Assembly: GCA_963575745.1 (NCBI GenBank)
Contig: CAUYUJ010014757.1
Coordinates: 89,501-153,500 of the forward strand
Reading direction: 5' to 3'
Origin: Prorocentrum cordatum
Taxonomy: Eukaryota > Sar > Dinophyceae > Prorocentrales > Prorocentraceae
Length of the DNA: 64,000 bases
Shown here piece by piece: positions 3,701 through 64,000 of this stretch (position 1 is its first letter; every line of letters begins with the position of its first letter). The notes below the pieces were generated by a model, which did not search any database, was not told where the DNA came from, and saw only the letters and a list, made by a program, of their open reading frames with translations. A program made the position numbers and the translations under genes.

Positions 3701-3800
3701 NNNNNNNNNNNNNNNNNNNNNNNNNNNNNNNNNNNNNNNNNNNNNNNNNNNNNNNNNNNNNNNNNNNNNNNNNNNNNNNNNNNNNNNNNNNNNNNNNNNN
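3701..3800. other. Assembly gap (100 N)
   Basis: A run of exactly 100 N, the usual placeholder for a gap of unknown size. Sequence on its two sides need not be adjacent in the genome. Confidence 0.99.
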
Positions 3801-6680: not shown

Positions 6681-6711
<31 letters not shown>

Positions 6712-8695
6712 GGTGAGTATGTGAGTGACTGAGCGTGTGAGGGAGCGCGAGTGATGATGCGGATGTTGATGATGAGAGAGTGTGAGTGAGTGTGAGTGTG
6801 AGTGAGTGGTGATGATGATGAGTGAGTGAGTGAATGTGCGAAGGCAGAAGAGGAAAGGGTGCGGGGTGAGTGTTCCTGCGCGGGGTGTGCAGAGAAAACA
6901 AGAAACCCACTTTGGACGTGGGGAAAAAGTGGCGACAGTTATACGTTTCGGATGACCCGCTCGGATTACCAACATGATCTGCGGGCCCCATAGGGAGGGG
7001 GCCCCCGCCTGAGACTTCCTCGCAATTCACTCATACTTGAAGTGCGGGCCCCAAAGGGAGGGGGCCCCCGCCTGACACTTCGTCGCAATTCACTCACAGA
7101 CGAGGCCCCCGCTCGAGACTTCCTCCATATTCAAATCTCAAGAGCCCAAAAGTGACGACAGTTGCACGTTGCGGATGACCCGCTCGGATTCGAACATGAA
7201 GTGCGGGCCCCATAGGGAGGGGGCTCCCGCCTGAGACTTCCTCACAATTCACTCACAGACGAGGCCCCCGCTCGAGACTTCCCCCATATTCAAATGACAG
7301 TTGCACGTTGCGGATCGCCCGCTCGGATTCGAACATGAAGCGCGGGCCCCGTAGGGAGGGGGCCCCCGCCTGAGACTTCCTTACAATTCACTCACAGACG
7401 AGGCCCCCGCCTGATACTTCCTCCATATTCGGGCCTCAAGAGCCCCAAAGTGACGACAGTTACACGTTGCAGATGACCCGCCCGGATTCGAACATGAAGC
7501 GCGGGCCCCATAAGGAGGGGGCCCCCGCCTGAGACTTCTTCACAATTCACTCGCAGACGAGGCCCCCGCCCTAGACTTCCTCCATATTCAGGTCTCAAGA
7601 GCCCAAAAGTGACGACAGTCGCACATGGCGGATGACCCGCTCGGATTCGAACATGAAGTGCGGGCCCCATAGGGAGGGGAGGGGGCTCCCGCCTGAGACT
7701 TCCTCGCAATTCACTCACAGACGAGGCTCCCGCTCGAGACTTCCTCCATATTCAATCTCAAGAGCCAAAAGTGACGACAGTTGCACGTTGCGGATGACCC
7801 GCTCGGATTCGAACATGAAGCGCGGGCCCCATAGGGAGGGGGCTCCCGCCTGAGACTTCCTCACAATTCACTCACAGACGAGGCTCCCGCTCGAGACTTC
7901 CTCCATATTCAGGCTCAAGAGCCCAAAAGTGACGACAGTTGCACGTTGCGGATGACCCGTTGGATTCGAACATGAAGTGCGGGCGCCCATAGGAGGGGCC
8001 CGCCGCCTGAGACTTCCTCGCAATTCACTCACAGACGAGGCTCCCGCTCGAGACTTCCTCCATATTCAGGCCTCAAGAGCCCAAAGTGACGACAGTTGCA
8101 CGTTTCGGATGACCCGCTCGGATTCGAACATGAAGTGCGGGCCCCATAGGGAGGGGGCTCCCGCCTGAGACTTCCTCGCAATTCACTCACAGACGAGGCT
8201 CCCGCTCGAGACTTCCTCCATATTCAGGTCTCAAGAGCCCAAAAGTGACGACAGTTGCACGTTGCGGATGACCCGCTCGGATTCGAACATGAAGCGCGGG
8301 CCCCATAGGGAGGGGGCTCCCGCCTGAGACTTCCTCACAATTCACTCACAGACGAGGCCCCCGCTGATACTTCCTCCATATTCAGGCCTCAAGAGCCCAA
8401 AAGTGACGACAGTTACACGTTGCGGATGACCCGCTCGGATTCGAACATGAAGTGCGGGCCCCATAGGGAGGGGGCTCCCGCCTGAGACTTCCTCGCAATT
8501 CACTCACAGACGAGGCCCCCGCTCGAGACTTCCTCCATATCCAGGTCTCAAGAGCCCAAAAGCGACGACAAGCGCACGTTGCGGATGACCCGCTCGAATT
8601 CGAACATGAAGTGCGGGCCCCATAGGGAGGGGGCTCCCGCCTGAGACTTCCTCACAATTCACACACAAACGAAGCTCCCGCCTGATACTTCCTCG
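5067..8695. repeat. ~160-bp tandem satellite array, about 22 units
   Basis: Units recur at 5151, 5304, 5440, 5775, 5936, 6063, 6223, 6387, 6539, 7190, 7325, 7485, 7645, 7806, 7965, 8125, 8280, 8440 and 8600 (position of GATTCGAACATGAAG), plus weaker copies. Spacing is mostly 152-164 bp, sometimes 127-135 where a half unit is lost. Each unit carries two versions of CTCCCGCCTGA(G/T)ACTTCCTC, so it looks like a doubled half unit. On the minus strand each unit contains GTTCGAATCC, identical to a tRNA-type B-box core, but I find no A-box. Open frames across it are by-products. Remnants in reverse orientation lie at 13795-13945. Confidence 0.9.
6627..6925. repeat. Insert of GAGT/GATGAT-rich module inside the array
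   Basis: The satellite is interrupted by a (GTGAGT)/(GATGAT) tract followed by a GTGCGAA...CACTTTGGACGTGGGG segment. This is a diverged copy of about 8700-8940, i.e. of the DNA that leads into the 3.7-kb module. The satellite resumes at once at 6926. Confidence 0.7.
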
Positions 8696-8880
8696 AGTGC
8701 GAGTGATGATGATGATGATGATGGCGATGAGTATGTGAGTGACTGAGCGTGTGAGAGAGCGCGAGTGATGATGTTGATGTTGATGATGAGAGAGTGTGAG
8801 TGAGTGTGAGTGTGAGTGAGTGGTGATGATGATGAGTGAGTGAGTGAGTGTGCGAACGCAAAAGAGAGGAGGGGGTGGGG
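8696..8880. repeat. (GATGAT)/(GAGT) microsatellite leading into second module copy
   Basis: Simple repeats of GATGAT and GTGAGT types separate the satellite from the second module copy. The last part, from 8791, equals window positions 1-90. Confidence 0.8.
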
Positions 8881-8954: not shown

Positions 8955-9109
8955 AACATAAGCTTTTGGCGTTCCGCGCAAATTTCTTGCACCCGCGCTG
9001 GACCCGCCTCCCCGGCGCGCGCGGCGCGCCAGGGGCGGCGCCAGAGGCGCGACCGGGGGGGCCCAGCGCGGGTCCAAGAAACCCGCGCGGAGCGCCAAAA
9101 GTGAATGTT
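8955..9109. mobile_element. Family T3 inverted-repeat element (second module copy)
   Basis: Same 155-bp element as at 165-319, shifted by 8790. Confidence 0.6.
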
Positions 9110-9135
9110 TATGGCGTTTTCTTCGTCTTCGAAAT

Positions 9136-9316
9136 ACTCCAGAATTCGCAATAAAGGGAGGGGGGTCTCATTTCGGGGGGGGTCTCTTCCAGGCTATCTT
9201 GGAGGGTTCGGGGGGGTCTGGGGACGATGTTTTGGAGGGCTCTCCCACGGGGGAGGTCTGAAATGGCTTGTCTTGGAGGGTCCAGACCCCCTCCCTTTCA
9301 TTACGAAATCTGGAGT
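9136..9316. mobile_element. Family T1 181-bp inverted-repeat element (second module copy)
   Basis: Same element as at 346-526, shifted by 8790. Confidence 0.75.
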
Positions 9317-11573
9317 GCATGTTGAGGCCTGGGCGGCTGCAGACACGGCCGGCGCCCCACGGAGCCGCGAAGGTGGCGACCTGCAGGAACAACGAACGGC
9401 GACGCCAGCGCCACCAGGGCGAGGAGATGCGAGGAGCAACGGGGGTCTCCCTGGCGGCGTGGCTCCCCACTCTCGTTCGAGACACCCCCAGCCTCCCGCG
9501 CGGGGCGGCCTCGTGGACCTCCTCGCTGGAGGTGGCCCCCCCGGCGGTGTCGGCGTCGCTTCCCCCCCCTTCCCAACGTGCGCCCCGTCCACGGAAGGCC
9601 GCGGCAGGTGGCCCCACTGCCAGTAGACGTCCTTGGCGCGCTCCATGGCAGACCTCCACAGATCGTTCGCGAGCGTCTCCTGTGGGACGCACAGAGACAC
9701 GCTACTGCCACGCGTCCTCCTCGGAGGCATCCGCCCGACCCGAACAGATAGCATGCCCATCTTGCGTTATATCGCGTCGCGAGCGGCGCGGCCAGAAAGC
9801 GCCCGCCACGACGCATATACTATAGAATTCTCGGCGCGCGCGGCGCCCCAGGGGGGGCGACGTACACGTAGTATTAGTATGTTGGGGTGACGCCGATCCT
9901 TCTCCGCTTGCGACAGCATCAAGCCAGCGTCGCGCACCCGCTCAATCGCTTGCGCATACGCCCCCCCCCGGCTCTGGCGACGTGATATCGGCATGCGCCT
10001 TTTCGAGCGCATCGGTCTTTGGGGTGTCTGCCAACGCATACTTCAACAAATAACTAGCACTGCGATTGTTGATACAAGCGCCCATCACCATACCATATAC
10101 AAACGTCGGCATGTCGATCTCGAAGGTATACTTGGCGATATGCGTCGGCGCCCCCCTTGCCTTAATTACCCTTGCCGCGCCAACTCCAGCAGGCCTCGGG
10201 CGCCTCTGGGCGCCCGGAAAGTCCCTGCGCAACCCTGTCGAAAACGTGGCCGCCGATCCACGCGATGTTCGGACTCGCGCGGAGGAATGAGGATGTCAAC
10301 GCTCGCGCTAGGTCCAACAGCGAGGCCCGCTCCAGAAATCACGGCGCGCGATGGGTTCGCGCCAATGTAGGCATTGCCTTGACTCCAGATGTCTGCGCTT
10401 GCACGCTCCGCCGCATCGTCATCGCTGCTTGGCGTGGTGGGCTGCAGGATCGCCTGCCCGCTCACCTTCTGCAGCCCATAGAACGACATCATGACCGTCT
10501 CGTTCGTCGCCTGCTGCAGGACGTCACCGCTCGGGACGTAGGGCTCCGAGGGCCAGCCGCCGTCGTCGCTCCACTGCGCGGCGTTGATGGTGCCTGGCGT
10601 GGCAAGCATCGCCGGCGTGGCTCGCGCGGAGTAGGCCTCGAGCCACGCCTGGGCGTCGTGGCTGCGCGCGGCAGGGACGGCCCTGCACTGCTGGCTGACC
10701 ATGAACGACTGCACGAGGGGGTCGCTCGCGCAGGCCTTGAAGTCCTTGATCCCTTGCTCGACGGCCGCAGTGATCATGGTCATATTCTCCATGGTGCACT
10801 TGTTGAACAGGACGTCGATATCGAAGCGGAACACGGGCACATCGTTTCCAAAGGCGCGCAGCCGAAGCAGTGCGTCCACCAATTTGGGCGCGTCATAGCT
10901 CGATGCAGAGAACCACTTCAAGAACTCGTCTTCGCCGCGCCTGGACCTGATGTCGCTGAACGGTTCGTTGAAACCGAACGGGGTCAGAATGCGAACCCTT
11001 CCGAGCAACCCTAGTTTTGCATTGGCTGCCTTCATGTGCGTTTCGACCGTGTCGTGGAGATCAATCAGTTGTGCCGGCCGTTGCGCATCCATGTCTTTCG
11101 CCTGATCGATGACATAATTAACATACGTCTTGAACAAATCTTTCATCCATAACACGCATGACAAGAATGCCTTTCTTCTCGCCATCAACGAGTGCATCAA
11201 GAGAGTACTCCAGGATTTTAGGAAGCTGGCTTGCCTTATTCACATGCGTGAACATATAACAGTCACACTGCAAACTGTCTGGACTCTCCACAAGCGAAAG
11301 AGAACGATGATGACGAATTCCCGCTGGAGCCGACGGCGCGCTGATGCTGTTGAAGATCAACACAAACATGGCAGCTACGCCGAGAACGCGCGCAAACACA
11401 TTCGCACGAAGCCTCCTTTGCGACGCGACTGACGATAAGAGGGCGTCGTCTTCGGAACCATCGTTGAACAACACGGAACACTCCGAAGTTCGAATCGGAA
11501 CTGCGTTCGGAAACATCGCCAAAAAGCGCGGCCCTTCGGAGACACAGTTGGAGTGATGAAGAGTACTGAGCAT
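9317..11573 (-). pseudogene. Decayed type II membrane protein gene (second module copy)
   Basis: Identical to 527-2783. The start ATG is at 11573, the longest continuous piece is about 11200-10290, the DxD-like VFRFDIDVLF lies near 10840-10802, and a family A insertion sits at 9714-9894. Identical frameshifts in both copies mean the decay predates the duplication or the duplication is artificial. Confidence 0.55.
9714..9894 (-). mobile_element. SINE-like family A repeat (second module copy)
   Basis: Same as 924-1104. Confidence 0.6.
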
Positions 11574-11629
11574 GACCCAAAATCCGAATCGGCTTGACAC
11601 AAATCGGCTTGAGCCAAAATAGCCACGGA
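11571..11629 (-). other. Tandem spliced-leader relics (second module copy)
   Basis: Same as 2781-2839. Confidence 0.7.
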
Positions 11630-12630
11630 CAGGGCTCGGAGCCGTCTCGGAGGCCTCTGAGCCGTCGTCGGGGGGCCTCGGGGCGTCGCGGCGCCTTTCG
11701 GGGTTCCCTTTATGGCTCTCTTGGAAGCCTCTTGAGCCATGTTGGAGCAATGCCTCCTCCTCCTCATCCTCATCCTCATCCTCATCCTCCTCCTCCTCCT
11801 CCGCCTCCTTTTCCTCCGCCCCCTCCTCCTCCGCCTCCTCCCCTCGTCTTGTTAGGTTTTCATGGGGCCGCCCTGCACAGGCTCGGGGCCCTTATGGGGG
11901 GCCGTCGTGGAGCCCTCGTCCGCCGCCTTTGGGGCCCTCTCGTGGCTCGTGGCGGCTCAACGCGTGGCTTTGGGCTGTCTTGGGCCGTGGGAGGCCGAAG
12001 TTTTTCCGTCGGCGGCGAGGCAGAGCTGGCTGCACCGGCGCTACAGCTAAACGAGGGCACCGAGAAGCGAGCTGGCCAGCGTGCAGGAGTATGGAAAGGA
12101 CACATGGGGCGGCCGCGGGGGGGGGAAGAAGAGGCCGCTCAGGGGGGGAAGCCCGAACCAGGCGAGAAGCCAAAAGACATTCAGAAGACCGGTGGGAAAT
12201 CATTGCTTTCTGGGGGTTCCTGAGGTCCTCAGCCTCTCAGTGTCTTCCTGAAGGCATCTTAGACCGCCTTGGGATAGCCAGGAATAATTTCGAGCACCCG
12301 GAAAAGTATCGAAACAGTGTCGAAACAGTGTCGGACGAGTGTCTCCCAGGGCCCGACATGTGAAAACCCTCGAATTGGGGTACTTTTGGGGACTCGAAAA
12401 TCTTTCTGGTGACCAGGGCCAAAGTAGGCTGGAACATCATAAGCCTTGGGGCCCTTGTGGACAATCTGGAAGCCAGCTGATACGGGCTGGGATCCCCTGC
12501 GCGGTGCGGCCCTGGCGGGGCTGGGGAGGACTGCGCCGTGACGCGGAGGAGAACGCCCACTCTCTCGATCTCCTCCTCCACGCCCCCTCTTAAACAACAC
12601 TCGCACACCAAATTATCAAGCCACCGTCCT

Positions 12631-22652: not shown

Positions 22653-23690
22653 ATATATATATATATATATATGTGTGTGTATGTGTATATATATACGTAC
22701 ACGTATAACTATATATATGTATATATGTACAAGGCTGCAGTGGCGCTTCGCGCCATGCACCTTGGTCCTTGAAGTTTGGCATGCAGGCGGAATAGCAGGA
22801 AGGTCAAGCCGACAATTTAGCGATAACTCCTGGTTGCCGCTATAATAATGTTATTCCTTATCCTTCCTCCATTCTTCTTTTTTTGTATTTTCGCCATACC
22901 CTGTGCATTCTCCCCATCCTCCTCAGCTCTTTTTTGCGGAGGCTCCTCCTTGGAGAGCCTCTGGGGGCCTCTCATAAGTTGTCTCAGGCTTTCGTAAGGC
23001 CTTCTGGAGGCCTCCTGGGCGTATTCTGGGGGCCTCTGGGGGCTTCCTCGGGCCACCCTGCCTCCAACCGCGGTCTCCCTGAACGACCGGGTCACGATTT
23101 GGAATGCTTCGGAAGGTGTCTTTGGGCCATCTTGGGCCGCCATGGGGCTCTCTGAGGGCCATCTTGGACCCGTGTTGTGCAATTTGGAGCTCTCTTGGAC
23201 TGCCTGGAAGCCCTTTCGGATGGTTGTGGGGCGATGTTGGAGCCTCCCAGGCGGCTTCGGACGCCCAGAAGACCGCCGTCTTGGAGCGTCGGGAAGCCGA
23301 AAAGAGGAGAACCCCAAAATTCATTAAAAAACCCGCAGAAAATCAATGATGTTTGCCTCGGGGGGCCTTCTTGGGAGTGCTCTTGGAGGTCTCTTTGGGG
23401 CCGTCCTGGAGGCCTCTTGGACCATCTTGAGGTCACGTCGGTCACTCTTGGAGCGCTCTTGTGCTGTCTTGGGGGTCTCTGGGACGTCGCCGATGACCCC
23501 CCTGATCGCCCTAGGCGTGCTTGGAAGGCTTGGCAAAACGCCCTGCGAGGCCCGGGGGCCGCTTCGAGGCCCGTCCCGAGGGAGTCTGTTTTTTTTGTTG
23601 GGGGGGGACGGGTTTCCCCCCCCCCCCCCCCGGGCTTATAAAAATATAGGAAGAGGAATATATGTGTATATATATATATGTATGTATTAC
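22653..23690. repeat. Family B ~1-kb repeat, copy 1 (nested in family A)
   Basis: It begins after a TA run with AAGGCTGCAGTGGCGCTTCG (hairpin TGGCGC-TTC-GCGCCA) and ends GGGCTTATAAAAATATAGGA followed by TA repeats. Most of the body is degenerate CTTGGG-type DNA with an AT-rich island near 23300-23350. It includes at 23353-23372 the intact version of the site used by the retrogene at 30.2-32.0 kb. Confidence 0.85.
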
Positions 23691-27440: not shown

Positions 27441-28394
27441 ATACAAGACTGCAGTGGCGCTTCGCGCCATGCACCTTGGTCCTTGCAGTTTGGTATGCAG
27501 GCGGAATGGCAGGAAGGTCAAGCCGACAATTTAGCGATAACTCCTGGTTGCCTTTTCTGGCATCGCCGCTATAATAATGTTATTCGTTATCCTTTATCCA
27601 TGCTTATTTTTCCTCAGTTTCGCCATGCCCTGCACATTCTCCCCATCCTCCTCAGCTCTTTTCTGCGGAGGCTCCTCCTTGGAGAGCCTCTGGGGGCCTC
27701 ACAAAAGTTGTTTCAGGCTTTCTTAAGGTCTTCTGGAGACCTCCTGCGTATTCTGGGGGCCTCCGGGGGCTTCCTCGGGCCACCCTGCCTCCAACCGCGG
27801 TCTCCCTGAACGACCGAATCACGATTTGGAATTCTTCGGAGGGTGTCTTTGGGCCATATCGGGCTGCCATGGGGCTCTCTGAGGGCCATCTTGGACCCGT
27901 GTTGTGCCGTTTGGGGGCTCTCTTCGACTGCCTGGAAGCCCTTTCGAATGGTTGTGGGGCGATTTTGGAGCCTCCCAGGCGGCTTCGGACGCCCAGAAGA
28001 CCGCCGTCTTGGAGCGTCGGGAAGCCGAAAAGAGGAGAACCCTAAAATTCACCAAAAACCCACAGATAATAAATGATTTTTACCTCGGGTGGCCTTCTTG
28101 GGAGTGCTCTTGGAGGCCTCTTTGGGGCCGTCCTGGAGGCCTCTTGGGCCATCTTGAGGTCACGTCGGTCACTCTTGGAGCGCTCTTGTGCTGTCTTGGG
28201 GGTCTCTGGGACGTCTCCGATGACCCCCCTGATCGCCCTAGGTGTGCTGGGAAGACTTGGCAAAACGCCATGTGAGGCCTGGTGGCCACTTCGAGGCCCG
28301 TCTGGAGGGTCCCAAAGCCCCAGATCCCGGGAGTCCGGTTTTGGGGGGGGGATGGGTTTTCCCCCCGCCCGGGCTTATACAAATATAGGAAGAG

Positions 28395-28435
<41 letters not shown>

Positions 28436-28440
28436 TGTAC
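27441..28440. repeat. Family B repeat, copy 2
   Basis: A full ~1000-bp unit starting ATACAAGACTGCAGTGGCGC and ending in GGAAGAGGAATATATATA. It is head-to-tail with copy 3 at a period of exactly 1000 bp. Confidence 0.9.
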
Positions 28441-29391
28441 ATACAAGATTGCAGTGGCGCTTCGCGCCATGCACCTTGGTCCTTGCAGTTTGGTATGCAG
28501 GCGGAATGGCAGGAAGGTCAAGCCGACAATTTAGCGATAACTCCTGGTTGCCTTTTCTGGCATCGCTGCTATAGTAATGTTATTCGTTATCCTTCCTCCA
28601 TGCTTATTTTTCCTCAGTTTCGCCATGCCCAGCGCATTCTCCCCATCCTCCTCAGCTCTTTTTTGCGGAGGCTCCTCCTTGGAGAGCCTCTGGGGGCCTC
28701 ACAAAAGTTGTTTCAGGCTTTCTTAAGGCCTTCTGGAGACCTCCTGGGCGTATTCTGGGGGCCTCCGGGGGCTTCCTCGGGCCACCCTGCCTCCAACCGC
28801 GGTCTCCCTGAACGACCGAATCACGATTTGGAATTCTTCGGAGGGTGTCTTTGGGCCATCTTGGGCCGCCATGAGGGCCATCTTGGACCCGTGTTGTGCC
28901 GTTTTGGGGGCTCTCTTGGACTGCCTGGAAGCCCTTTCGGATGGTTGTGGGGCGATTTGGGAGCCTCCCAGGCGGCTTCGGACGCCCAGAAGACCGCCGT
29001 CTTGGAGCGTCGGGAAGCCGAAAAGAGGAGAACCCTAAAATTCACCAAAAACCCACAGAAAATCAATGATTTTTACCTCGGGGGGCCTTCTTGGGAGTGC
29101 TCTTGGAGGCCTCTTTGGGGCCGTCCTGGAGGCCTCTTGGGCCATCTTGAGGTCACGTCGGTCACTCTTGGAGCGCTCTTGTGCTGTCTTGGGGGTCTCT
29201 GGGACGTCTCCGATGACCCCCCTGATCGCCCTAGGTGTGCTGGGAAGGCTTAGCAAAACGCCATGTGAGGCCTGGTGGCCACTTCGAGGCCCGTCTGGAG
29301 GGTCCCAAAGCCCCAGATCCCGGGAGTCCGGTTTTGGGGGGGGGGATGGGTTTTCCCCCCGCCCGGGCTTATTCAAATATAGGAAGAGGAA

Positions 29392-29432
<41 letters not shown>

Positions 29433-29438
29433 CTATAT
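28441..29438. repeat. Family B repeat, copy 3
   Basis: Full unit, 998 bp, with small indels against copy 2 (for example near 28870). Confidence 0.9.
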
Positions 29439-30243
29439 ATACAAGACTGCAGTGGCGCTTCGCGCCATGCACCTTGGTCCTTGAAGTTTGGTATGCAGGC
29501 GGAACGGCAGGAAGGTCAAGCCGACAATTTAGCGATAACTCCTGGTTGCCTTTTCTGGCATCGCCGCTATAGTAATGTTATTCGTTATCATTCCTCCATG
29601 CTTATTTTTCCTCAGTTTCGCCATGCCCAGCGCATTCTCCCCATCCTCCTCAGCTCTTTTTTGCGGAGGCTCCTCCTTGGAGAGCCTCTGGGGGCCTCAC
29701 AAAAGTTGTTTCAGGCTTTCTTAAGGCCTTCTGGAGACCTCCTGCGTATTCTGGGGGCCTCCGGGGGCTTCCTCGGGCCACCCTGCCTCCAACCGCGGTC
29801 TCCCTGAACGACCGAATCACGATTTGGAATTCTTCGGAGGGTGTCTTTGGGCCATCTTGGGCTGCCATGGGGCTCTCTGAGGGCCATCTTGGACCCGTGT
29901 TGTGCCGTTTGGGGGCTCTCCTGGACTGCCTGGAAGCCCTTTCGGATGGTTGTGGGGAGATTTTGGAGCCTCCCAGGCGGCTTCGGACGCCCAGAAGACC
30001 GCCGTCTTGGAGCGTCGGGAAGCCGAAAAGAGGAGAACCCCAAACTTCACCAAACACCCACAGAAAATAAATGATTTTTGCCTCGGGTGGCCTTCTTGGG
30101 AGTGCTCTTGGAGGCCTCTTTGGGGCCGTCCTGGAGGCCTCTTGGGCCATCTTGAGGTCACGTCGGTCACGAAAAGAGGAGAACCCCAAAATGCACCAAA
30201 AACCCACAGAAAACCAATGATGTTTGCCTCGGGGGGCCTTCTT
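29439..30243. repeat. Family B repeat, copy 4, rearranged and interrupted
   Basis: It follows the consensus to about 30168, then jumps back to the GAAAAGAGGAGAACCCC segment seen earlier at 30027, and is cut at 30243 by the retrogene. Its remainder is at 32013-32335. Confidence 0.85.
30224..30243. other. Target-site duplication, left copy
   Basis: TTGCCTCGGGGGGCCTTCTT, repeated at 32013-32032. The intact, unoccupied sequence is present once in family B copy 1 at 23353-23372. Confidence 0.9.
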
Positions 30244-31990: not shown

Positions 31991-32012
31991 CTTGAGCCAA
32001 AATGGCTACGGA
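31991..32012 (-). other. Perfect dinoflagellate spliced-leader sequence
   Basis: The minus strand reads TCCGTAGCCATTTTGGCTCA plus AG, matching the conserved 22-nt dinoflagellate SL with T at the variable first base. It lies at the very end of the inserted cDNA. There is no splice donor or SL-RNA body after it, so it is a relic in a cDNA, not an SL RNA gene. Confidence 0.95.
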
Positions 32013-39335: not shown

Positions 39336-40645
39336 TCATGGGGGCTGAGAAATCGGGATGTGCGATATGAAAACACGGCGCAGCTCCTGAAATAGTAACA
39401 CCTGGTACAGCCACTGCCATGGTAGGATCACTCCTAAGTGTAATTTGCACGTTGGGGAACCATGTGCTAGGTGGCCTACTAGGTGTGTCCAAGCATGGAT
39501 TACATATAGGCGTGCATGACATTGTCCGTCTGGTGACGCCCATGCGCGAGCCAGAGCTGCGTTCTGACGGTGGGCGCGCGCCACATGCGCGCGCAACGCC
39601 CCACGCTGTCGGAAAGCACGCGCACACCATGGACACTTGACACTGTCATCTACTGTGACGTCTGCTGCACATGTAGGTGTGTCTACAAGGAGTCCATTAA
39701 CGTCCGTCCAAACACGTTCTGGCACTCCCAGGAAACGGACTTCCTGAAACAATTTGGCCCCCACTGTGGCCGCCTCAACATTTCGAGCATGCGATTGGGC
39801 CGTAGCGTGTAACGCCATCTTGATAATGCGTTTCCTAGCTGTTTGATTTCGTCGGACGAGGGACTCCCATTCACTGAAATCCTCAAGCGGTGGCGGGAGG
39901 GAAGCACAAGCTACAGCAGCAGCACGTAGCCACGAGCAACCATCCATGACCATTCCCAGCCATGACCTGGCACGGCAACCGTACTGAGTAGTGTCGCACC
40001 ACTCGGCCATTAGCAAGGCAAAAACCAGTTCGGGCCCTGTGTGCAATAGTGAACCCAACAGTCGCAGACGCGCAGCTCTTCTTAGAACGTCGGGCGGGGG
40101 TCGGCTGAGTCTGGCCAGCATTTGGCCATCACTTCTGCATGATTCGTCTTCCACAAAACGAACCTTCGCCGCAGCTCGGTAGACTTTCATGACTTGAGCG
40201 TCGGCCATGTTGGCCTCCACCGGTGTTAGCATAGTCCAGGTGCCCGAGTTGTAGAGACGACCCGGTAACACCAGACTGTCGGCGAACATCATACATGTTG
40301 GATCGGCAAGAGCCTTGGTGGAGAAAACTCTGGTGCGCAACACCCGTAATGTAGCTGTGGCACTGCTGGCCCGATATCGGACCTCGGGCCCCATGTTACC
40401 TCGGGGTCAATAACTGAGCCAAGATGCAACTTGTGCTCGACAATCGGTGCCCGCACGGTCCCAAGTAGCTGTGTCTGCGCAACCACATGCTCACCACACT
40501 CGTGCCATGCGTGCTGCTTCGCCTTATTCGATCCTTTTCTTCGGTGAGCCAAAAGGGCAGCCGTTTTTGTTACGCCGATGTTGAATGTCCTCTGCCAGCA
40601 AACACGTCGGCAACCACGAAGAACGCACTGCGCATGGAAGGGCAC
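39336..40645 (-). pseudogene. LINE ORF2: RT thumb, linker and C2H2 zinc finger
   Basis: Two frames shifted near 40395 form one protein. The first contains FNIGVTKTAALLAHRRKGSNK and LVEHK-like VEHKLHLGSVIDPE (post-catalytic RT and thumb). The second, from 40394, contains LVLPGRLYNSGTWTML, a helical stretch, and CPWCARAFRQRGALRAHVAR (C254, C257, H270, H275 of the 352-codon frame; C-x2-C-x12-H-x4-H). A second finger at GQCHARLYVIHAWTHLVGHL has lost one cysteine. Nucleic-acid binding during target-primed reverse transcription is the expected role. Confidence 0.7.
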
Positions 40646-42966
40646 AGGTCGGAAGCAAGGACAATCACAATGATGGCGCCGTCATCCGCAAAGGTAACGT
40701 CCAACAGCGGCACGGCGGTAGCAGCGTCGGCATCGGTTACTACACTCTGCACGCTCTTGCGCTCATCTGTAGGCAAGTGCAGGGCTAGCCCATCCGCGTC
40801 CACTTGAGCTCGTACAGCGTGCATGCATTCACCCATACGCATCTTGTACAATATATCAGCGAGAGGCTGTCCCGGGAAAACCGAACGCTGTGGCAAGGAA
40901 ATCTGGTCGGAACTCTCGCACATGAACCAGGGGGCATGGTAGCATTGTGAAATATGAGCTGCTGCGTGCGCATGTAGTGCACCGTTCACCACTTGCTGTT
41001 CAACAGTAGGTGTCAGTTCACGCATACGCCTTGCGAGCTCATGCATGGCACTCGCCGGTAGGCCTACTGCCCTGACAACACAAACAACGGCATCATCGTC
41101 GAGCGGTGATCGAAGTAGTAATTCCCGCAAGGCACGGTAACATGCCTGCACCACATACAGGAGTAGCACGCCAAAAGACAGAGCACCGGCATCCGCAACT
41201 GCTTGCGCAGGACGAATGATGACTGACGCATGGCCAGTTCCTCTACCTGGTATTCCCCCAAACTGAGTACCCCCTGCCGTGGCGAGCAGTGCTGGCATCA
41301 ACCGAGTCCGCAAGCATCTCCGCGAGGCCCTACCAAGCTGCGAGGACACCAGAATAGAGCGGGAGCTGACACAGGCACTGTGGTCGGCTGTGATGGACTT
41401 CAGCAAATCGCGATAGAACCCCCGACTCCATTGAATAGGCTCAATTAGGGTGACCGCTGTCTTGAGTTGCAACGGGCAATACAGGGCAGCGATCTCAGTA
41501 GCGAAAGCAAGCACCAAAGCTCCCGTGAAACAGTCACAGCCATGGGCGGGGCGCTTGGTCTGGCGGCAGGCATGCTGAAACTCAGACGGGGTCGGCAATG
41601 CATCACTAGGCACCGGATCGGAGGAGATCCGATCGCACGGCACCCGTGCGAAGTGACCCGCAATCCCAGTCACGTCTGCAAGCTCGAAGGTCGCTGCCAG
41701 CTCTAGCGTGCCAAAGTGCTGCTGCCAACGACGGGCTGCCTGAAACTGCGAAGTTACCGGCTGAACATGCATATCCTTGACGATGGGCAGCCCTCTGAGC
41801 ATACGCTTGCGCCGGGACCCTGCACCGACACGGCGCAAGGCCGCGAAAGCCTCCGCTGCCAGTCCCCGGGACCATGCATCCTGAATGCCTGTTGCAATGT
41901 CGACGCAGAATATGTACGTGAAGGCCCACGTGAGACCCTGCCACCTCCAGAAGTTAGGGAAAATACTTTGTAGTTGGCACATGGCACGTGGAATACCTAC
42001 CAGGGGACAGTAATTGGGCTGCAGGTGACCTACGTGGCACCCAGCAAGACACAGTCTCCACAAGGCCTCCAGATGTACGATATGGAAGGAAGGGGCAAAT
42101 AACCTACCTCTCGCATCCTGCAAAGGCTGCACAAACTCCACTGCAGCCTCGAAAACCTCTGACCCGACATGCGCAACTGCGTCGCATGCATCAATGAGCA
42201 ACGCACGAGAGGGACCCTCTCGCACTGACCACCTCCACCTACACTGTCGGTAGTCCAACCACTCCTCCACTTCTTTCCCATCTGTGACCCAACGCAAAAG
42301 GCAACAACAAGCAATAATAAGTTGAGTCGTCTTCGCAACGCACGTAGCTCTCATCGCCCGGAAGAGCGACGGCCCATGTGCGTCAGCGAGCGAGCCGGGA
42401 GCCATGACTGACGCGGCAAACGCCCCGTGGGTGACTTCTGCACGGGGAAGCACGCGGTGACAGCCCCAACTAGCTCGTCGTTCAAATGCGCGCGTGATCA
42501 CCTGGGTGCGACTGGAAAGCTGGCCGTTGGATATTTCTGGCCATGGTAGCAAGCTTTGCCGCGCACTCAGTGTCCTGTTTGTTTTCTGATCGCGGGAGAT
42601 TCTGGCCCAAGCAGAAGTAGCCCGCACAGGACCCGCGCTGCTGCCTTGCATGTCGGCCATAACAACGACATGATCATCATATCGCAAAGACAGATCCAGT
42701 ATCGGATCAACCCCTTGCCGACTGATCGAATTGAGAGAGGCTTGAGGCACGGCCACGCAGTCAATACAGCGTCTCGGGTCCCGGGGGGCCGCGCCAGGCG
42801 GCATCCACGTGCCATGCGTGCCGAAAACGTAGACGCCGCACCCTGTCCGGTAGCTCGTAGGAGATCGTGAAACAAATGTCCAGCATCGTTTTCCTGCTCG
42901 GCTCCCACGGGGCCCACGCGGCTGGACTGAACCGTTCCGACAGTGGCGCTCGCGCCCAGTAAACAA
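40570..42966 (-). pseudogene. LINE ORF2: endonuclease C-terminus and reverse transcriptase
   Basis: A 798-codon open frame. IDCVAVP (residues 68-74) and LSLRYDDHVVVM (92-103) are the end of an AP-endonuclease-like domain. The RT domain carries QFGGIPGRGTGHAS (568-581), LPQRSVFPGQPLADIL (691-706, motif B) and VTFADDGAIIV (757-767, motif C with both aspartates). Motif A should supply an aspartate in the position of LLLYVVQACYRAL (601-613) and does not, so polymerase activity is very likely lost. The frame is otherwise open, suggesting fairly recent death. It continues from the endonuclease pieces upstream by a frameshift near 42960. Confidence 0.8.
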
Positions 42967-55489: not shown

Positions 55490-58400
55490 AAGGTCGCGAA
55501 GCGCCAGCTCCTCCTTCCTCGAGCCCTCGTCTTGTGAGGTGTGGCGCCACCGTGTTTTGGCTCGTGCTGCTGCGGCCCCGAGTGCATGGATTCTATGTGT
55601 GGCAACTGCCACACGACCAAGAGCCACGACCAAGAGCTATGCTAGTGAACAGATGGTTAAGAGGCTGGAACAGGGTAAGTGCCGTCGGTCGCGACGGACG
55701 GAGCCTGCTCCTCCTTCCTCGAGCCCATCGTCGTGTTAGGCATGGCGCCACCGTGTTCTGGCTCGTGCTGCTGCGGCTCCGAGTGCATGGATTCTATGTG
55801 TGGCAAGTGCCACACGACCAAGAGCTACGACCAAGAGCTACGCTGGTGAACAGATGGTGAAGAGGCTGAAACAGGGCAAGCGCCGTCGGTCGCGAGGGTC
55901 GGCGCCAGCTCCTCCTTCCTCGAGCCCATCGTCTTGCGAGGCATGGCCACGATGGTCTGGCTCGTGCTGCTACAGTTCCGAGTGGGTGGATTAGATGTGG
56001 CAACTGTTACACGACCAAAAGCTACGACCAAGAGCTATGCTAGTGAACAGATGGTTGAAAGGCTGGAACAAGGTAAGTGACGTTGGTCACGGGGGTCGTC
56101 GCATGCTCCTCCTTCCTCGAGCCATCGCCTTGCGAGGCATGGCCACCGTGTTCTGGCTCGTGCTGTTACGGTCCGAGTGTATGGATTATGCGAAGCAGCT
56201 GCTACACGACCAAAAGCTATGGTTGTGAACAGATGGTTAAGAGGCTGGAACAGGGTAAGTGCCGTCGGTCGCGACGGACGGAGCCAGCTCATCCTTCCTC
56301 GAGCCCTCGTCTTGTGAGGCATGGCCACCGTGGTCTGGCTCGCACTGCTACGGTTCCGAGTCTATGGATTAGATGTGGCGACTGTTACACGACCAAGAGC
56401 CACGACCAAGAGCTACGCTAAGGAACAGATGGCTAAGAAGCTGGAACAGGGTAAGTGTCGTCGGTCGCGAGGGTCGGCGCCAGCTCCTCCTTCCTCGAGC
56501 CCTCGTCTTGTGAGGCATGGCCACCGTGTTCTGGCTCGCGCTACTACGATTCCGAGTGCATGGATTATGCGCGGCAACTGTTACACGACAAGGGCTATGC
56601 TAGTGTACAGGTGGTTAAGAAGCTGGAACAGCGTAAGCGCCGTCGGTCGCGAGGGTCGGCGCCAACTCCTCCTTCCTCGAGCCCTCGTCTTGTGGGGCAT
56701 GGCCACCGTGTTCTAGCTCGTGCCGCTACGGTTCCGAATGTATGGGTTCTGTATGGCAACTCATACGCGACCAATAGACACGACCAAGAGCTATGCTAGT
56801 GAACAGATGGTGAAGAGGCTGGAACAGGGTAAGTGCCGTCGGTCGCGAGGGTCGGCGCCAGCTCCTCCTTCCTCGAGCGCCTCGTCTTGTTAGGCATGGC
56901 CACCGTGTTCTGGCTCGTGCTGCTGCGGCTCCGAGTGTGAAGCTAATGCGTGGCAGCTGTCACACGACCATTGGATACCTGGAAATTGGCACCAACACCA
57001 ACACAGGGGGTTGCCTCCACCAGGGGAAAACGATCCTAGATTTCGCTGTTGGTGGTAATCGTTCGGCCGCCTAGGAAGCCAGAATAACTATACGACCACC
57101 CTGCGGGCGATAAGGAGGTTCTGACCCGTGCTACTACGATTCCGAGCGCATAAAATATGTATAACAACTATCACACGACCAAGAGCCACGACCAAGAGCT
57201 ATGCCAATGAACAGGTGGTTAGGAAGCTAAAACAGAATAAATGCAGTCGGTCGCGAGGGTCGGCGCCAACTCCTCCTTCCTCGAGCCCTCGTCTCTGTGG
57301 GGCATGGCCACCGTGTTCTGGCTCGTGCCGCTACGGTTCCGAATGTATGGATCGTGTATGGCAACTCATACGCGACCAATAGATATGACCAAGAGCTATG
57401 CTAGTGAACAGATGGTTAAAAGCCTGGGACAAGGTAAGTGCCGTCGGTCGCGAAGGTCGGCGCCAGCTCCTCCTTCCTCGAGCTCCTCGTCTTGCTAGGC
57501 ATGGCCAACGTGTTCTGGCTCGTGCAGCTACGGTTCCGAGTCTATGGATTAGATGTGGCGACTGTTACACGACCAAGAGCCACGACCAAGAGCTACGCTA
57601 AGGAACAGATGGCTAGGAAGCTGGAACAGGGTAAGTGCCGTCGGTCGCGAGGGTCGGCGCCAGCTCCTCCTTCCTCGAGCCCTCGTCTTGTGAGGCATGG
57701 CCACCGTGTTCTGGCTCGTGCTACTACGATTCCGAGTGCATGGATTATGCGCGGCAACTGTTACACGACAAGGAGGTCCGACCAAAAGCTATGCGCTATG
57801 CTAGTGCACAGGTGGTTAAGAAGCTGGAACAGCGTAAGCGCCGTCGGTCGCGAGGGTCGGCGCCAACTCCTCCTTCCTCGAGCCCCTCGTCTTGTGAGGC
57901 ATGGCCACCGTGGTCTGGACCGTGCTGCTGCTGTTCCGAGTGCATGGATTATGTGCGGCAGCTGTTACACGACCAAGAGCTATGACCAAGAGCTGTGCTA
58001 CTGAACAGATGGTTAAGAGGCTGGAACCGGGCAAGTGCCGTCGGTCGCGAGGGTCGGCGCCAGCTCCTCATTCCTCGAGCCAATCGTCTTGTGAGGCATG
58101 GCCACCGTGGTCTGGCTCGTGCTGCTGCGCCTCCGAACGTATGGCGTATGTGTGGCAACTGTGGCACGACCAAGAGCTACGACCAAGAGCTATGCTAGTG
58201 AACAGATGGTTAAAAGCCTGGGACAAGGTAAGTGCCGTCGGTCGCGAGGGTCGGCGCCAGCTCCTCCTTCCTCGAGCTCCTCGTCTTGTTAGGCATGGCC
58301 ACCGTGTTCTGGCTCGTGCAGCTACGGTTCCGAACGCATGGATTAGATGTGGCAGCTGTTACACGACCAAGAGCCACGACCAAGAGCTGTGCTAGTGAAC

Positions 58401-58767
58401 AGATGGTGAAGAGGCTGGAACAGGGTAAGTGCCGTCGGTCGTGAGGGTCGGCGCCAGCTCCTCCTTCCTCGAGCCCTCATCTTATGAGGCATGGCCACCG
58501 TGTTCTGACCCGTGCTACTACGATTCCGAGCGCATAAAATATGTATAACAACTAGCACACGACCGAGAGCCACGACCAAGAGCTATGCTAATGAACAGGT
58601 GGTTAGGAAGCTAAAACAGAATAAATGCAGTCGGTCGCGAGGGTCGGCGCCAACTCCTCCTTCCTCGAGCCCTCGTCTTTGTGGGGCATGGCCACCGTGT
58701 TCTGGCTCGTGCCGCTACGGTTGCGAAAGTATGGATTATGTATGGCAACTCATACGCGACCAATAGA
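55490..58767 (+). repeat. Exon-intron-like tandem array, block 1 (15 units of ~180-200 bp)
   Basis: GTCGGTCGCGAGGGTCGGCG-type segments mark units at about 55683, 55888, 56084, 56263, 56459, 56641, 56837, 57246, 57440, 57638, 57840, 58038, 58235, 58433 and 58629. A typical unit is GGCATGGCCACCGTG, a 43-codon open core, TATGCTAGTGAACAGATGGT, then AAGAGGCTGGAACAGG, the donor-like GTAAGTGCCGTCGG, CTCCTCCTTCCTCGAGCCC and TCTTGTGAG. Donor variants are GTAAGC, GCAAGT and GCAAGC; GC donors are used in dinoflagellates, and a few units have lost the donor. The core encodes YASEQMVKRLEQ in one frame and SECMDYxWQLLHDQ in another. In the unit ending at about 56633 both lie in a single frame (DYARQLLHDKGYASVQVVKKLEQ); a duplicated ACCAAGAGCTACG separates the frames in most other units. 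No known domain. Confidence 0.85.
56972..57120. repeat. ~148-bp segment inserted in the array, copy 1
   Basis: GGATACCTGGAAATTGGCAC to GCGGGCGATAAGGAGGTT. The only other copy is at 62511-62658, at the end of block 2, about 95 percent identical. It replaces the second half of a unit, so it may be the original flank of the array. Confidence 0.8.
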
Positions 58768-60089
58768 TCCGCCGATCCGGCGTGTGAGTTTCAAGGAGTC
58801 TCAGCTACAGCCTCGAGGCTGAGCTTCAGCCTCTGGGGGGGTCGCCGGGGTGGCTCTGCCGGGGAAGGGGGGGTGGGGGGGGGGGGGGGGTGCGAGTTTC
58901 CGGCGAACCCCGGGGCCGCTCCGGGGGAGTGGAAGATAGGGGGGGGGGGGGCGCCATGCTCCGCTTTTTCCGGCGCTTTGGAGGAGGGGGGGGGCCCAAG
59001 AGACCCCCAAGGGGTTCCAAGAGGGCCCCGAGTCGCCGAAAAATCGCTCCAAGACGCCCGAGATGGCCTCCAGACGGCCCAAGGTGTCTCCAAGACGCCC
59101 CAAGAAGCTTCCAAGAGGCCTCCCAAGAGGGCCCCAAGAGGCCAGAATCGTTGATTTTCATTGGTTTTCTCAGGGTTTTTAGCGTTCTTGCCTTTTCGGG
59201 CGTCCGACGCTCGAAGACGGCCCAAGAGGCCCCCAAGTCCGTCCCAAGACGGCCCACGATGCTTCCAACACGGCCCAAGAGAGCCCCAAGACGGCCCAAG
59301 AGGGCCCCAAGACGGCCCAAGAGGGCCTCTGGACAGCCCAAGAAGGCCCCAAGAGAGCCCCAAGAGGGGCCCAAGAGGGGGACCACGAACCGAAAGAACC
59401 GAGCTTTCCGCCCCAAGAGGCCCCCAGGAGGCCCCAAGAGACCCCCAAGGGGCCCCAAGAAGCCCACAAGAGGCCCAAAAGAGGTTCCAAGAGGCCCCAA
59501 AACAGCTCCCCAGAGGCCTCCAGACTGCCTCCGGCAGGCCCCCGGTTTCTTCCGCGGCACCGCCCAGGGCGCCACCGGCAGGATGTCCTCCGTCTCATCG
59601 TTTTCCTTCAAGTTATCGCCTCTTCCTCATTCTCCTCCTCCTCCTCTGCGACCTCACTCCTATCCCTCAACGATCGCGTCACCGAGTGCCTCTTCTTTGA
59701 AACATCCTCGCTCTTCAAACGCACATCCATACACACATGCATACATACCTACATTTAAACACATTTGCATACATAGAAAAACAATCTTCCAGACATACAT
59801 ACTTACATTCACACACATACACACATATTATCATACACACATACAAACATACATACAAACTAAATACATACATACGCGCACAAGCATACATACATACATA
59901 CGTACCTACACACAGGCACACATGATCAATGCATGCATACATGCATGCACGCGTACATACACACACATATATCGTGAAACTCACCGCGTGCTCGAAACTT
60001 GAGAGAGACCGCGGGAAGTCGAGAGAAGCCGCGGAACGAGGCCTCTACTACTACTACCACTACTACCACAACCACTACTACTACTACTA

Positions 60090-60121
<32 letters not shown>

Positions 60122-60122
60122 G

Positions 60123-60158
<36 letters not shown>

Positions 60159-60351
60159 ATACTACTACTAGTACTACAGGAGCCTTTCCCAACTAGTATG
60201 TGTGTGTGGGTGATGCTGTGTGCGCATGTCTGCGGCGCAGGTTAAGTGGTGTGACTGTGTGTGTGCGTTTGAGTGTGCGCCCATAATTTCTGCGTCTGGA
60301 GAATAACCCCGAGCGACCCGGATCGGCGGCACTGGCCGAAGGCCACTACAA
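58768..60351. other. 1.58-kb interruption of the exon-like array
   Basis: The array breaks after CAATAGA (58761-58767) and resumes with TATGACCAAGAGC at 60352. In uninterrupted units (57372-57392, 61720-61740) these two are adjacent. Near its two ends lie CCGCCGATCCGG (58769-58780) and its inverse CCGGATCGGCGG (60318-60329). Content: GC-rich CCAAGACGG satellite with an AT-rich island at 59155-59200 (58990-59580), (CATA)n (59700-59960) and (TAC)n (60045-60175). No gene is seen; Lys/Pro/Arg frames are compositional. Confidence 0.75.
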
Positions 60352-62510
60352 TATGACCAAGAGCTATGCTAGTGAACAGATGGTTAAAAGCCTGGGACAA
60401 GGTAAGTGCCGTCGGTCGCGAGGGTCGGCGCCAGCTCCTCCTTCCTCGAGCCCTCGTCTTGTGAGGCATGGCCACCGTGGTCTGGCACGCACTGCTACGG
60501 TTCCGAGTCTACGGATTAGATGTGGCGACTGTTACACGACCAAGAGCCACGACCAAGAGCTATGCTAAGGAACAGATGGCTAAGAAGCTGGAACAGGGTA
60601 AGCGCCGTCGGTCGCGAGGGTCGGCGCCAGCTCCTCCTTCCTCGAGCCCTCGTCTTGTGAGGCATGGCCACCGTGTTCTGGCTCGTGCTACTACGATTCC
60701 GAGTGCATGGATTATGCGTGGCAACTGTTACACGACAAGGAGGTCCGACCAAAAGCTATGCTAGTGCACAGGTGGTTAAGAAGCTGGAACAGCGTAAGCG
60801 CCGTCGGTCGCGAGGGTCGGCGCCAACTCCTCCTTCCTCGAACCCCTCGTCTTGTGAGGCATGGCCACCGTGGTCTGGACCGTGCCGCTGCTGTTCCGAC
60901 TGTATGGATTATGTGCGGCAGCTGTGGCACGACCACGAGCTATGACCAAGAGCTGTGCTACTGAACAGATGGTTAAGAGGCTGGAACCGGGCAAGTGCCG
61001 TCGGTCGCGAGGGTCGGCGCCAGCTCCTCCTTCCTCGAGCCAATCGTCTTGCGAGGCATGGCCACCGTGGTCTGGCTCGTGCTGCTGCGGTTCCGAACGT
61101 ATGGAGTATGTGTGGCAACTGTGGCACGACCAAGAGCTACGACCAAGAGCTGTGCTAGTGAAGAGATGGTTGAAAGCCTGGGACAAGGTAAGCGCCGTCG
61201 GTCGCGAGGGTCGGCGCCAACTCCTCCTTCCTCGAGCTCCTCGTCTTGTCAGGCATGGCCACCGCGTTCTGGCTCGTGCAGCTACGGTTCCGAACGTATG
61301 GATTAGATGTGGCAGCTGTTACACGACCAAGAGCCACGACCAAGAGCTGTGCTAGTGAACAGATGGTGAAGAGGCTGGAACAGGGTAAGTGCCGTCGGTC
61401 GCGAGGGTCGGCGCCAGCTCCTCCTTCCTCGAGCCCCCATCTTATGAGGCATGGCCACGTGTTCTGACCCGTGCTACTACGATTCCGAGCGCATAAAATA
61501 TGTATAACAACTAGCACACGACCAAGAGCCACGACCAAGAGCTATGCTAATGAACAGGTGGTTAGGAAGCTCAAACAGAATAAATGCAGTCGGTCGCGAG
61601 GGTCGGCGCCAACTCCTCCTTCCTCGAGCCCTCGTCTTTGTGGGGCATGGCCACCGTGTTCTGGCTCGTGCCGCTACGGTTCCGAATGTATGGATTATGT
61701 GTGGCAACTCATACGCGACCAATAGATATGACCAAAAGCTATGCTAGTGAACAGATGGTTAAAAGCCTGGGACAAGGTAAGTGCCGTCGGTCGCGAGGGT
61801 CGGCGCCAGTTCCTCCTTCCTCGAGCTCCTCGTCTTGTTAGGCATGGCCACCGTGTTTTGGCTCGTGCAGCTACGGTTCCGAACGTATGGATTAGATGTG
61901 GCAGCTGTTACACGACCAAGAGCCACGACCAAGAGCTGTGCTAGCGAACAGATGGTTAAGAGGCTGGAACAGGTTAAGTGCCGTCGGTCGCGAGGGTCGG
62001 CGCCAGCTCCTCCTTCCTCGAGCCCTCGTCTTGTGAGGCATGGCCACCGTGTTCTGGCTCGTGCTACTACGATTCCGAATGCATGGATTATGTGTGGCAA
62101 CTGTTACACGACAAGGAGGTCCGACCAAGAGCTATGCTATTGTACAGGTGGTTAAGAAGCTGGAACAGCCAAAGCGCCGTCGGTCGCGAGGGTCGGCGCC
62201 AACTCCTTCTTCATCGAGCCCATCGTCTTGTGAGGCATGGCCACCGTGGTCTGGACCGTGCTGCTGCTGTTCCGAACGTATGGATTATGTGTGGCAACTG
62301 TGGCACGACCAAAAGTTACGACCAAGAGCTATGCTAGTGAACAGATGGTGAAGAGGCTGGAACAGGGTAAGTGCCGTCGGTCGCGAGGGTCGACGCCAGC
62401 TCCTCCTTCCTCGAGCGCCTCGTCTTGTTAGGCATGGCCACCGAGTTCTGGCTCGTGCTGCTGCGGCTCCGAGTGTATAGATAATGTGTGGCAGCTGTCA
62501 CACGACCAGT
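60352..62510 (+). repeat. Exon-intron-like tandem array, block 2 (11 units)
   Basis: Units at about 60411, 60606, 60800, 61000, 61196, 61394, 61587, 61786, 61981, 62176 and 62376. 60352-61725 repeats 57386-58760 unit for unit, a ~1.37-kb higher-order repeat of seven units, and 61726 onward begins a third round. Same exon-like core, donor and pyrimidine tract as block 1. Confidence 0.85.
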
Positions 62511-62658
62511 GGATACCTGGAAATGGGCACCAACACCAACACAGGGGGTTGACTGCACCAGGGGAAGACGATCCTAGATCTCGCTGTTGGTAGTAATCGT
62601 TCGGCCGCCTAGGAAGCCAGAATAACTATAAGACCACCCTGCGGGCGATAAGGAGGTT
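62511..62658. repeat. ~148-bp segment, copy 2, closing block 2
   Basis: Same as 56972-57120. Here it is followed by unrelated DNA, so it forms the right edge of the array. Confidence 0.8.
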
Positions 62659-62724
62659 TAGGGGGATTGAGATCAGATGCCCACCCTGACTGACCTCCAG
62701 CCTGTCACCTTGATATCATCTCTC

Positions 62725-62726
62725 TA

Positions 62727-62767
<41 letters not shown>

Positions 62768-62789
62768 GTGTCTCTCTCTCTCTCTCTCG

Positions 62790-62838
<49 letters not shown>

Positions 62839-62850
62839 CCTCTCTATCAG
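62725..62850. repeat. (TC)n microsatellite
   Basis: About 120 bp of TC with few interruptions. Confidence 0.95.
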
Positions 62851-63310
62851 AGTCTCGCCGCAGGCGCAGAAACAAATGAATTGATGGATTGGGTTGGATG
62901 GATTGGACTGGGTGGGATGAGATAAGATGGGACAATATGGGTTGGATAAGATAAGATGGGTTGGATTGGACAAGATGGATTGGAGAAGATAAGCTGGATT
63001 GGATAAGAAAGCCCGCCGCAGGCGCCGACAAAAATGAATTGATGGATTGGGTTGGGTGGATTGGATTGGATGGGATAAGATGGATTGGATAAGATAAGAT
63101 GGGTTGGATTGGAAAAAATATATTGGATAAGATGGATTGGACTGGCCCGCCGCAAGCGCAGAAACAAGTGAATTGATGGATTGGGTTGGGTGGATTGGAT
63201 TGGGTGGGATAAGATAAGATGGGACAAGTTGGGTTGGATAAGATAAGAAGGATTGGATTGGAAAAGATAAGCTGGATTGGATAAGAAAGCCCGCCGCAGG
63301 CGCCGAAAAA
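62851..63310. repeat. ~145-bp tandem repeat rich in GGATTGGATAAGATAA
   Basis: Units start CGCCGCAGGCGCAGAAACAA at about 62853, 63013, 63147 and 63293 (last partial). Inside are GGGTTGG, GGATTGGA and AAGATAAGATGG words. Confidence 0.85.
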
Positions 63311-63334
63311 AATGAATTATGAAATTTGCGACAT

Positions 63335-63605
63335 GCGTTAGCGCCGGGACGCCCGGGACACCCAGGACACCCAGGACACCGCCCGGCCCAACTGCGACAC
63401 CTCCCGCCCGCCGGCGGACGGGAAACGGACTTTCGCTCCCACTGACACCCGGGACACCCGGGACACCGCCCGGCCCAACTGGGACACCTCCCGCCCACCG
63501 GCGGACGGGAAACAAACTTTCGCTCCTACTGACACCCGGGACACCCGGGACACCGCCCGGCCCAACTGGGACACCTCCCAGCCACCGGCGGACGGGATCG
63601 GACTT
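63335..63605. repeat. 87-bp (29-codon) tandem repeat, three units
   Basis: Units of GACACCCGGGACACCCGGGA followed by CACCGCCCGGCCCAACT, CCACCGGCGGACGGGA and CTTTCGCTCCTACT at about 63355, 63444 and 63531. The length is a multiple of three and both strands stay open (minus: SQLGRAVSRVSRVSVGAKV), but no flanking coding context is seen. Confidence 0.8.
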
Positions 63606-63821
63606 TCGCTCCTACTTCGGCCTAGCTACAGGAAGATCACGCGCAGTTTCGCCTCGCCCGCACGCACGACACGAAACCGAAACCGATTTCCCGGTGGGGG
63701 GTCTCCGTTTCACTGCGATCTCACCCCCCAACCCCCGATTACCACCATCACCGAGATCGGGACACTTTTCCCTCGGTGGAGGCACACCGCCAATATTGAT
63801 GTTGGTGTAAACCTCTGGCCA

Positions 63822-63895
63822 TCTGAGACCAAGAGTTATGCTAGTGAGCAGGTGGTCAAGAGGCTGCAACAGGGTAAGTGCCGTCGGTCGCGAGG
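63822..63895 (+). other. Isolated, diverged exon-like unit with splice donor
   Basis: ACCAAGAGTTATGCTAGTGA, then GCAGGTGGTCAAGAGGCTGC and AACAGG, is followed by GTAAGTGCCGTCGGTCGCGA, the array donor and intron start. Against the array consensus the coding part differs at five sites, three synonymous (AGC/AGT, GAA/GAG, GTT/GTC) and two conservative (M/V, E/Q) in the YASEQMVKRLEQ frame. A preceding CATCTGAG could be an acceptor. This may be a true exon of a gene continuing right of the window. Confidence 0.5.
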
Positions 63896-64000
63896 GTCTG
63901 CTGTGCAGCACACACACACACACACACCGACAGTCCCCACCGTATGAATGTGCCATGTGCGAGACAAGTGCTGGTAGCTGCGAGGTGGCTCAGTGGCATC

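Follow-up and report, generated by a model that had tools for sequence, protein, structure and literature searches.

A 64,000-nucleotide stretch of the genome of the dinoflagellate Prorocentrum cordatum (contig CAUYUJ010014757.1, positions 89,501 to 153,500 of the forward strand, referred to here as the window) contains a 197-bp unit that is repeated head to tail about 28 times on the forward strand between window positions 55,495 and 63,903. Twenty-four of the units are uninterrupted, and the others are truncated or split. We conclude that these repeats are dinoflagellate satellite DNA without coding function, a reading to which we assign a probability of roughly 0.86. The satellite family would be new, though of an ordinary kind; it includes a higher-order block and may have been seeded by a fragment of a gene or by an exon. 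The original prediction for this array had offered two readings, a satellite that captured a splice donor and a multiplied exon. The satellite is favored by a duplicated block of units, by units split by insertions, and by sequence variants and changes in length that bear no relation to codons, and its donor may or may not have come from a gene; the multiplied exon is disfavored by the lack of a synonymous excess and by unit lengths that shift the reading frame. The reading of the array as working exons is not supported.

The extent of the array was determined with an nhmmer profile built from nine units, which was scanned against both strands of the window at E values up to 10. This produced 30 matches, all on the forward strand between 55,508 and 63,901, of which 24 were full length and 6 were partial, and the unit was not found elsewhere in the window. 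Tandem Repeats Finder reported a period of 197 starting at 55,501. The left edge of the array (55,495) was read from the sequence, and the profile matches begin only at 55,508. The array had originally been described as 27 copies of an exon-like cassette; this figure agrees with the number of donor-like sites, while the number of units becomes about 28 once split halves are joined.

The same seven unit types occur in the same order from 57,466 and again from 60,434, and the segments 57,383 to 58,768 and 60,351 to 61,727 are 96.4% identical. The six uninterrupted pairs of partner units in the two blocks have a mean identity of 96.9% (range, 93.9 to 99.5%), compared with 85.1% for adjacent units (21 pairs) and 85.4% for non-partner pairs overall (range, 75 to 99%). 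Block partners that are closer than neighbors constitute a higher-order repeat pattern, here with only two block copies in the window. One unit, at 57,466, is slightly closer to the unit at 56,288 than to its block partner. The two block copies differ at 29 of 925 positions in the exon-like parts (3.1%) and at 12 of 452 in the intron-like parts (2.7%, P = 0.74).

Two units of the array are interrupted by insertions: the nhmmer matches at 58,654 and 60,351 are halves of one unit, and those at 62,399 and 63,824 are halves of another. Once the first insertion, which is 1.58 kb long, is taken out, the empty site is exact and shows no duplication, and the joined halves (58,654 to 58,767 and 60,352 to 60,433) match the unit at 61,613 with 97.5% identity over 197 bp. 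This insertion carries a 12-nt inverted repeat (58,769 to 58,780 and 60,318 to 60,329) that is flush with its left edge and 22 nt inside its right edge, as well as a short hairpin, GGCCGAAGGCC, close to its right end. We take its ends to resemble those of Helitron2/Helentron elements. The second insertion, an element of 1.3 kb bearing inverted repeats at both ends, interrupts the unit that begins at 62,399, which stops at CACACGACCA (62,508) and continues with GACCAAGAG at 63,827. The inverted repeats gave an alignment score of 72, compared with a best score of 44 among 500 base shuffles, and their alignment begins 19 nt inside both edges as these were read from the sequence. GACCA is found at both edges of the element, a candidate terminal-inverted-repeat DNA transposon, where it could be a target duplication but may alternatively belong to a 13-bp internal repeat of the unit itself. 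When joined at the nhmmer edges (62,515 and 63,824), the two halves score as a full unit (profile positions 2 to 192, E = 3e-58). The solo exon copy that had been proposed near 63,827 is thus the right-hand half of the array's last unit, separated from the rest by the 1.3-kb element between 62,508 and 63,827.

The consensus unit consists, in order, of GTAAGT, an intron-like stretch of 64 to 65 nt that contains a pyrimidine tract and ends in TGTGAG, a 132-nt block, and CAGG followed by the next GTAAGT. It can thus be parsed as an AG, a 132-nt block that is open in one frame (translation, MATVFWLVLLRFRMYGLCVATVTRPRATTKSYASEQMVKRLEQ), and a GTAAGT donor. The 27 donor-like sites comprise 19 GT, 3 GC, 3 AT, 1 TT, and 1 CA, so that 22 of 27 are GT or GC, and the 27 acceptor-like sites comprise 23 AG and 4 GG; 5 donors and 4 acceptors have therefore been lost. 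In Prorocentrum cordatum, donors are reported to be 24.7% GT, 51.4% GC, and 23.8% GA (PMC10666404). Only 12 of the 24 full units combine AG, GT or GC, a block length that is a multiple of 3, and an open frame. Pairwise diversity is 0.31 at the donor G, 0.30 at the donor T, and 0.23 at the acceptor A, compared with a mean of 0.166 over the exon-like part. Mean diversity is lower in the intron-like part (0.096, P = 0.016), but counts of variable columns do not bear this difference out (32 of 63 intron-like versus 80 of 132 exon-like columns, P = 0.22), and greater conservation of the intron-like part was not relied on.

Coding constraint was assessed in those 18 full units that have a core of exactly 132 nt. 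The other six full units have cores of 118, 118, 131, 136, 136, and 139 nt, and their omission therefore favors the coding reading. None of these six lengths is a multiple of 3, so the frame is shifted in each, and none of the seven length-change events that we read from the alignment is a multiple of 3. The 18 units contain 94 distinct variants, 92 of which can be scored in the open frame as 27 synonymous, 63 non-synonymous, and 2 stops. The synonymous count does not significantly exceed the 25.5 expected under random placement (P = 0.39), and by variant counts no synonymous excess was found in any of the six frames on the two strands (lowest P = 0.31). The YASEQMVKRLEQ stretch, which had been singled out for its synonymous appearance, has 7 synonymous variants out of 24 (6.1 expected, P = 0.40), which is not significant. 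Over the whole block in the open frame, variants common to at least two unit types, as we assigned these types, are synonymous in 9 of 33 cases (9.4 expected), and the remaining variants are synonymous in 18 of 61 (16.1 expected). In closed frame 1, the corresponding value for the common variants is 13 of 33 (9.0 expected, P = 0.09).

The check for homologous proteins that accompanied the original prediction was made with a profile of ten array open reading frames (ORFs), for which 7,979 candidates out of 5.8 billion proteins were scored; among these proteins of similar length that share words with the array ORFs, no homolog was found beyond the window's own ORF, the single hit. Six array peptides had no Pfam family above cut-off. 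A frame joining MDYARQLLHDK to YASxQVVKKLEQ, present in the unit at 56,484 and with extra residues in the unit at 57,663, gave no convincing match: two Pfam families had E values of 0.066 and 0.14, below their cut-offs, and the 56,484 peptide had five hits in PDB with E values of 0.79 or worse. No DNA relatives were found in phages, and a 23-nt exact pattern found none in viral contigs or prokaryote genomes. Five viral contigs matched by a looser 21-nt pattern were attributed to chance, as nhmmer detected no copy of the unit there and the blastn matches listed were stretches of only 12 to 36 nt. The lack of relatives in the searched collections is weak evidence.

Several observations weigh against the satellite reading. 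Certain non-partner units are also very similar, up to 99%, and diversity is zero at donor positions +3 and +4 and at the acceptor G. The open frame noted originally was confirmed: among the 18 units that have a core of 132 nt, 16 are open in one and the same frame. The consensus unit passes a joint test for a donor, an acceptor, and an open exon, whose thresholds were chosen after the unit had been seen; when 10,322 random segments of the window were put to the same test (20,000 segments drawn, low-complexity segments removed), 1.5% passed on a given strand and 2.8% when either strand was allowed, as did 1.0% of shuffled consensus sequences. The script for this test is stricter than the four features counted above, and among the 24 real units of full length it accepts 8. 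Among the old variants of the core, with the split last unit included, 7 of 16 are synonymous (4.2 expected, P = 0.09), which is the strongest hint of past constraint. By the Nei-Gojobori method (NG86), omega is 0.82 in the open frame (0.67 to 0.99 by a rough bootstrap) and 0.43 in its YASEQ part. A frame that contains stops in all 18 units gives still lower values (0.56 for the whole block and 0.32 for the YASEQ part), so a low omega is not specific to coding sequence. The ratio near 1 in all frames that had been expected of a non-coding array was thus not literally observed, since pairwise values range from 0.56 to 1.01, but the two lowest belong to frames closed in all 18 units and are no mark of coding.

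Alternatively, the unit may have originated as a true exon together with its donor and the start of its intron, a gene fragment that was captured and then amplified as a satellite that no longer codes. Such an origin is compatible with a satellite and is a possibility that we regard as doubtful. It would account for the rarity of the exon-like layout among random segments, for the widely retained open frame, and for an acceptor in which AG is followed by G, as in the 79.7% of Prorocentrum cordatum acceptors reported to be AGG (PMC10666404). Against it, neither a parent gene nor a homologous protein was found in the collections searched, variants common to unit types lack a synonymous excess over the whole block, and similar signals occur in another satellite of the same window. 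It is very improbable that the units are working exons spliced into a repetitive protein or long RNA: the half of the full units that have all four features and the invariant donor +3, donor +4, and acceptor G are what such exons would display, but the other half fail, 6 of 24 shift the frame, splice sites have been lost at both ends, and the donor G, donor T, and acceptor A are not conserved. At 65 nt, the intron would also be much shorter than those of Prorocentrum cordatum, for which a mean of 4,709 bp is reported (PMC10666404). Least probable of all is a tandem set of spliced-leader or other small RNA genes in which GTAAGT follows a short exon. The tandem layout and the donor in most units would fit such genes, and the string CCGTGTTTTGGCTCG, present in some units, bears a faint likeness to the spliced leader, yet the array contains no spliced-leader match even when 3 mismatches are allowed over 15 positions or 4 over 21. 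Searches for structured RNAs lent no support either; Rfam gave no match at the gathering score in the window, only 11 weak matches far under the cut-offs, and ARAGORN was run under the bacterial code.

Under the satellite reading, the array may have grown by unequal exchange or a similar copying process. The GTAAGT motif, the tract of pyrimidines, and the open frame could be chance features of the founder sequence or the remains of a captured gene fragment, and they would have been carried along by amplification rather than maintained by selection.

Table 1. Positions within the window of the array, its blocks and insertions, and the spliced-leader relic.
Feature	Position	Strand	Basis
Tandem array, about 28 units of about 197 bp	55495..63903	+	30 nhmmer matches; Tandem Repeats Finder period 197
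Truncated left end of the 62509-63826 inverted-repeat element, in the first part of the array	56971..57117	+	95% identical to 62499-62658
Seven-unit higher-order block, first copy; seventh unit cut (remainder 60352-60433)	57466..58767	+	96.4% segment identity; six partner units at 93.9-99.5%
1.58-kb insertion splitting one unit (58654-58767 + 60352-60433)	58768..60351		Inverted repeat; joined halves
Seven-unit higher-order block, second copy	60434..61808	+	Segment identity; partner units
Inverted-repeat element of 1.3 kb, splitting the last unit (62399-62508 + 63827-63903)	62509..63826		Inverted-repeat alignment; edges read from sequence
Right half of the last array unit (formerly the solo copy)	63827..63903	+	nhmmer match; joined halves
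Complete 22-nt dinoflagellate spliced-leader relic, outside the array	31991..32012	-	Exact 15-mer; exact 21-mer; 22 nt read

Outside the array, the window contains a second long satellite with units of about 159 bp (5,001 to 8,720, reverse strand) that also looks exon-like by eye. The four units tested all failed the joint exon-layout script, but by simpler criteria it has 15 paired sites at which an AG precedes a short block that is followed by GTGAGT or GCGAGT, with a 39-nt block in 11 of the 15. Splice-like signals are therefore not unique to the 197-bp array in this window. Elsewhere, a 2,680-bp segment is present twice (283 to 2,962 and 9,073 to 11,752) at 100% identity, 8,790 bp apart, with a gap of Ns at 3,701 to 3,800, and represents a recent duplication or an assembly artifact. 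A further repeat family (22,730 to 23,582, 27,446 to 29,165, and 28,446 to 30,170) has a spacing of about 1 kb and 91 to 96% identity. The spliced-leader relic on the reverse strand comprises all 22 nt of the dinoflagellate leader and points to a dinoflagellate host. Copies with one mismatch in 15 positions lie at 2,818 and 11,608, both in one duplicated segment; together with the relic, such degenerate copies are possible signs of genes copied back from messenger RNA. Nine large ORFs outside the array had no Pfam family at 0.001. One ORF of 798 amino acids (40,570 to 42,966, reverse strand) was suspected to encode a retrotransposon protein, and its FADD and GRGT stretches recall the reverse transcriptases of dinoflagellate long interspersed nuclear elements, but it had a single Pfam match at an E value of 0.11 and none in PDB, neither search giving a significant match. 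The GC content of the window is 58.5%, and that reported for Prorocentrum cordatum is 59.7% (PMC10666404).

Among known systems, the array is most readily set beside satellite DNA with higher-order repeats, the organization of the alpha-satellite type. It consists of head-to-tail copies of one monomer (partner identity, 0.969; adjacent identity, 0.851), and diverged monomers (85%) form a seven-unit block that recurs at 97%. Unlike arrays of the alpha-satellite type, it is small, with about 28 monomers and two block copies in the window, and its family was not recognized in the collections searched. Tandem units with an open frame are also found in the multi-coding-unit or polyprotein genes of dinoflagellates, which are described as encoding recognizable proteins such as HSP70 and RuBisCO (PMC10666404, PMC11453091). 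The array differs from these in having no homolog, no synonymous excess by variant counts, and lengths that break the frame. Dinoflagellate introner elements, described as transposable elements that create introns (PMC10666404, PMC11453091), share with it a repeated intron-like sequence with splice signals. The exon-like and intron-like parts of the array repeat together in tandem, unlike introners, and this layout argues against an introner element.

The window holds two unrelated long-unit satellites in which AG, an open block with a length that is a multiple of 3, and a donor-like GT or GC are combined, in 12 of 24 full units of the 197-bp family and at 11 of 15 paired sites of the 159-bp family. 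Should this extend genome-wide, exon-with-donor fragments would repeatedly become satellites, and some arrays would perhaps be spliced into fast-changing repetitive transcripts; we consider this very improbable. If the exon reading were true, it would reveal a new way for repetitive proteins or RNAs to arise. On the present evidence, the case illustrates that to the eye a satellite may pass for an array of exons, and reading-frame tests together with the analysis of split units help to separate the two. The duplicated seven-unit block and the insertions document on a small scale how a satellite has grown in a dinoflagellate.

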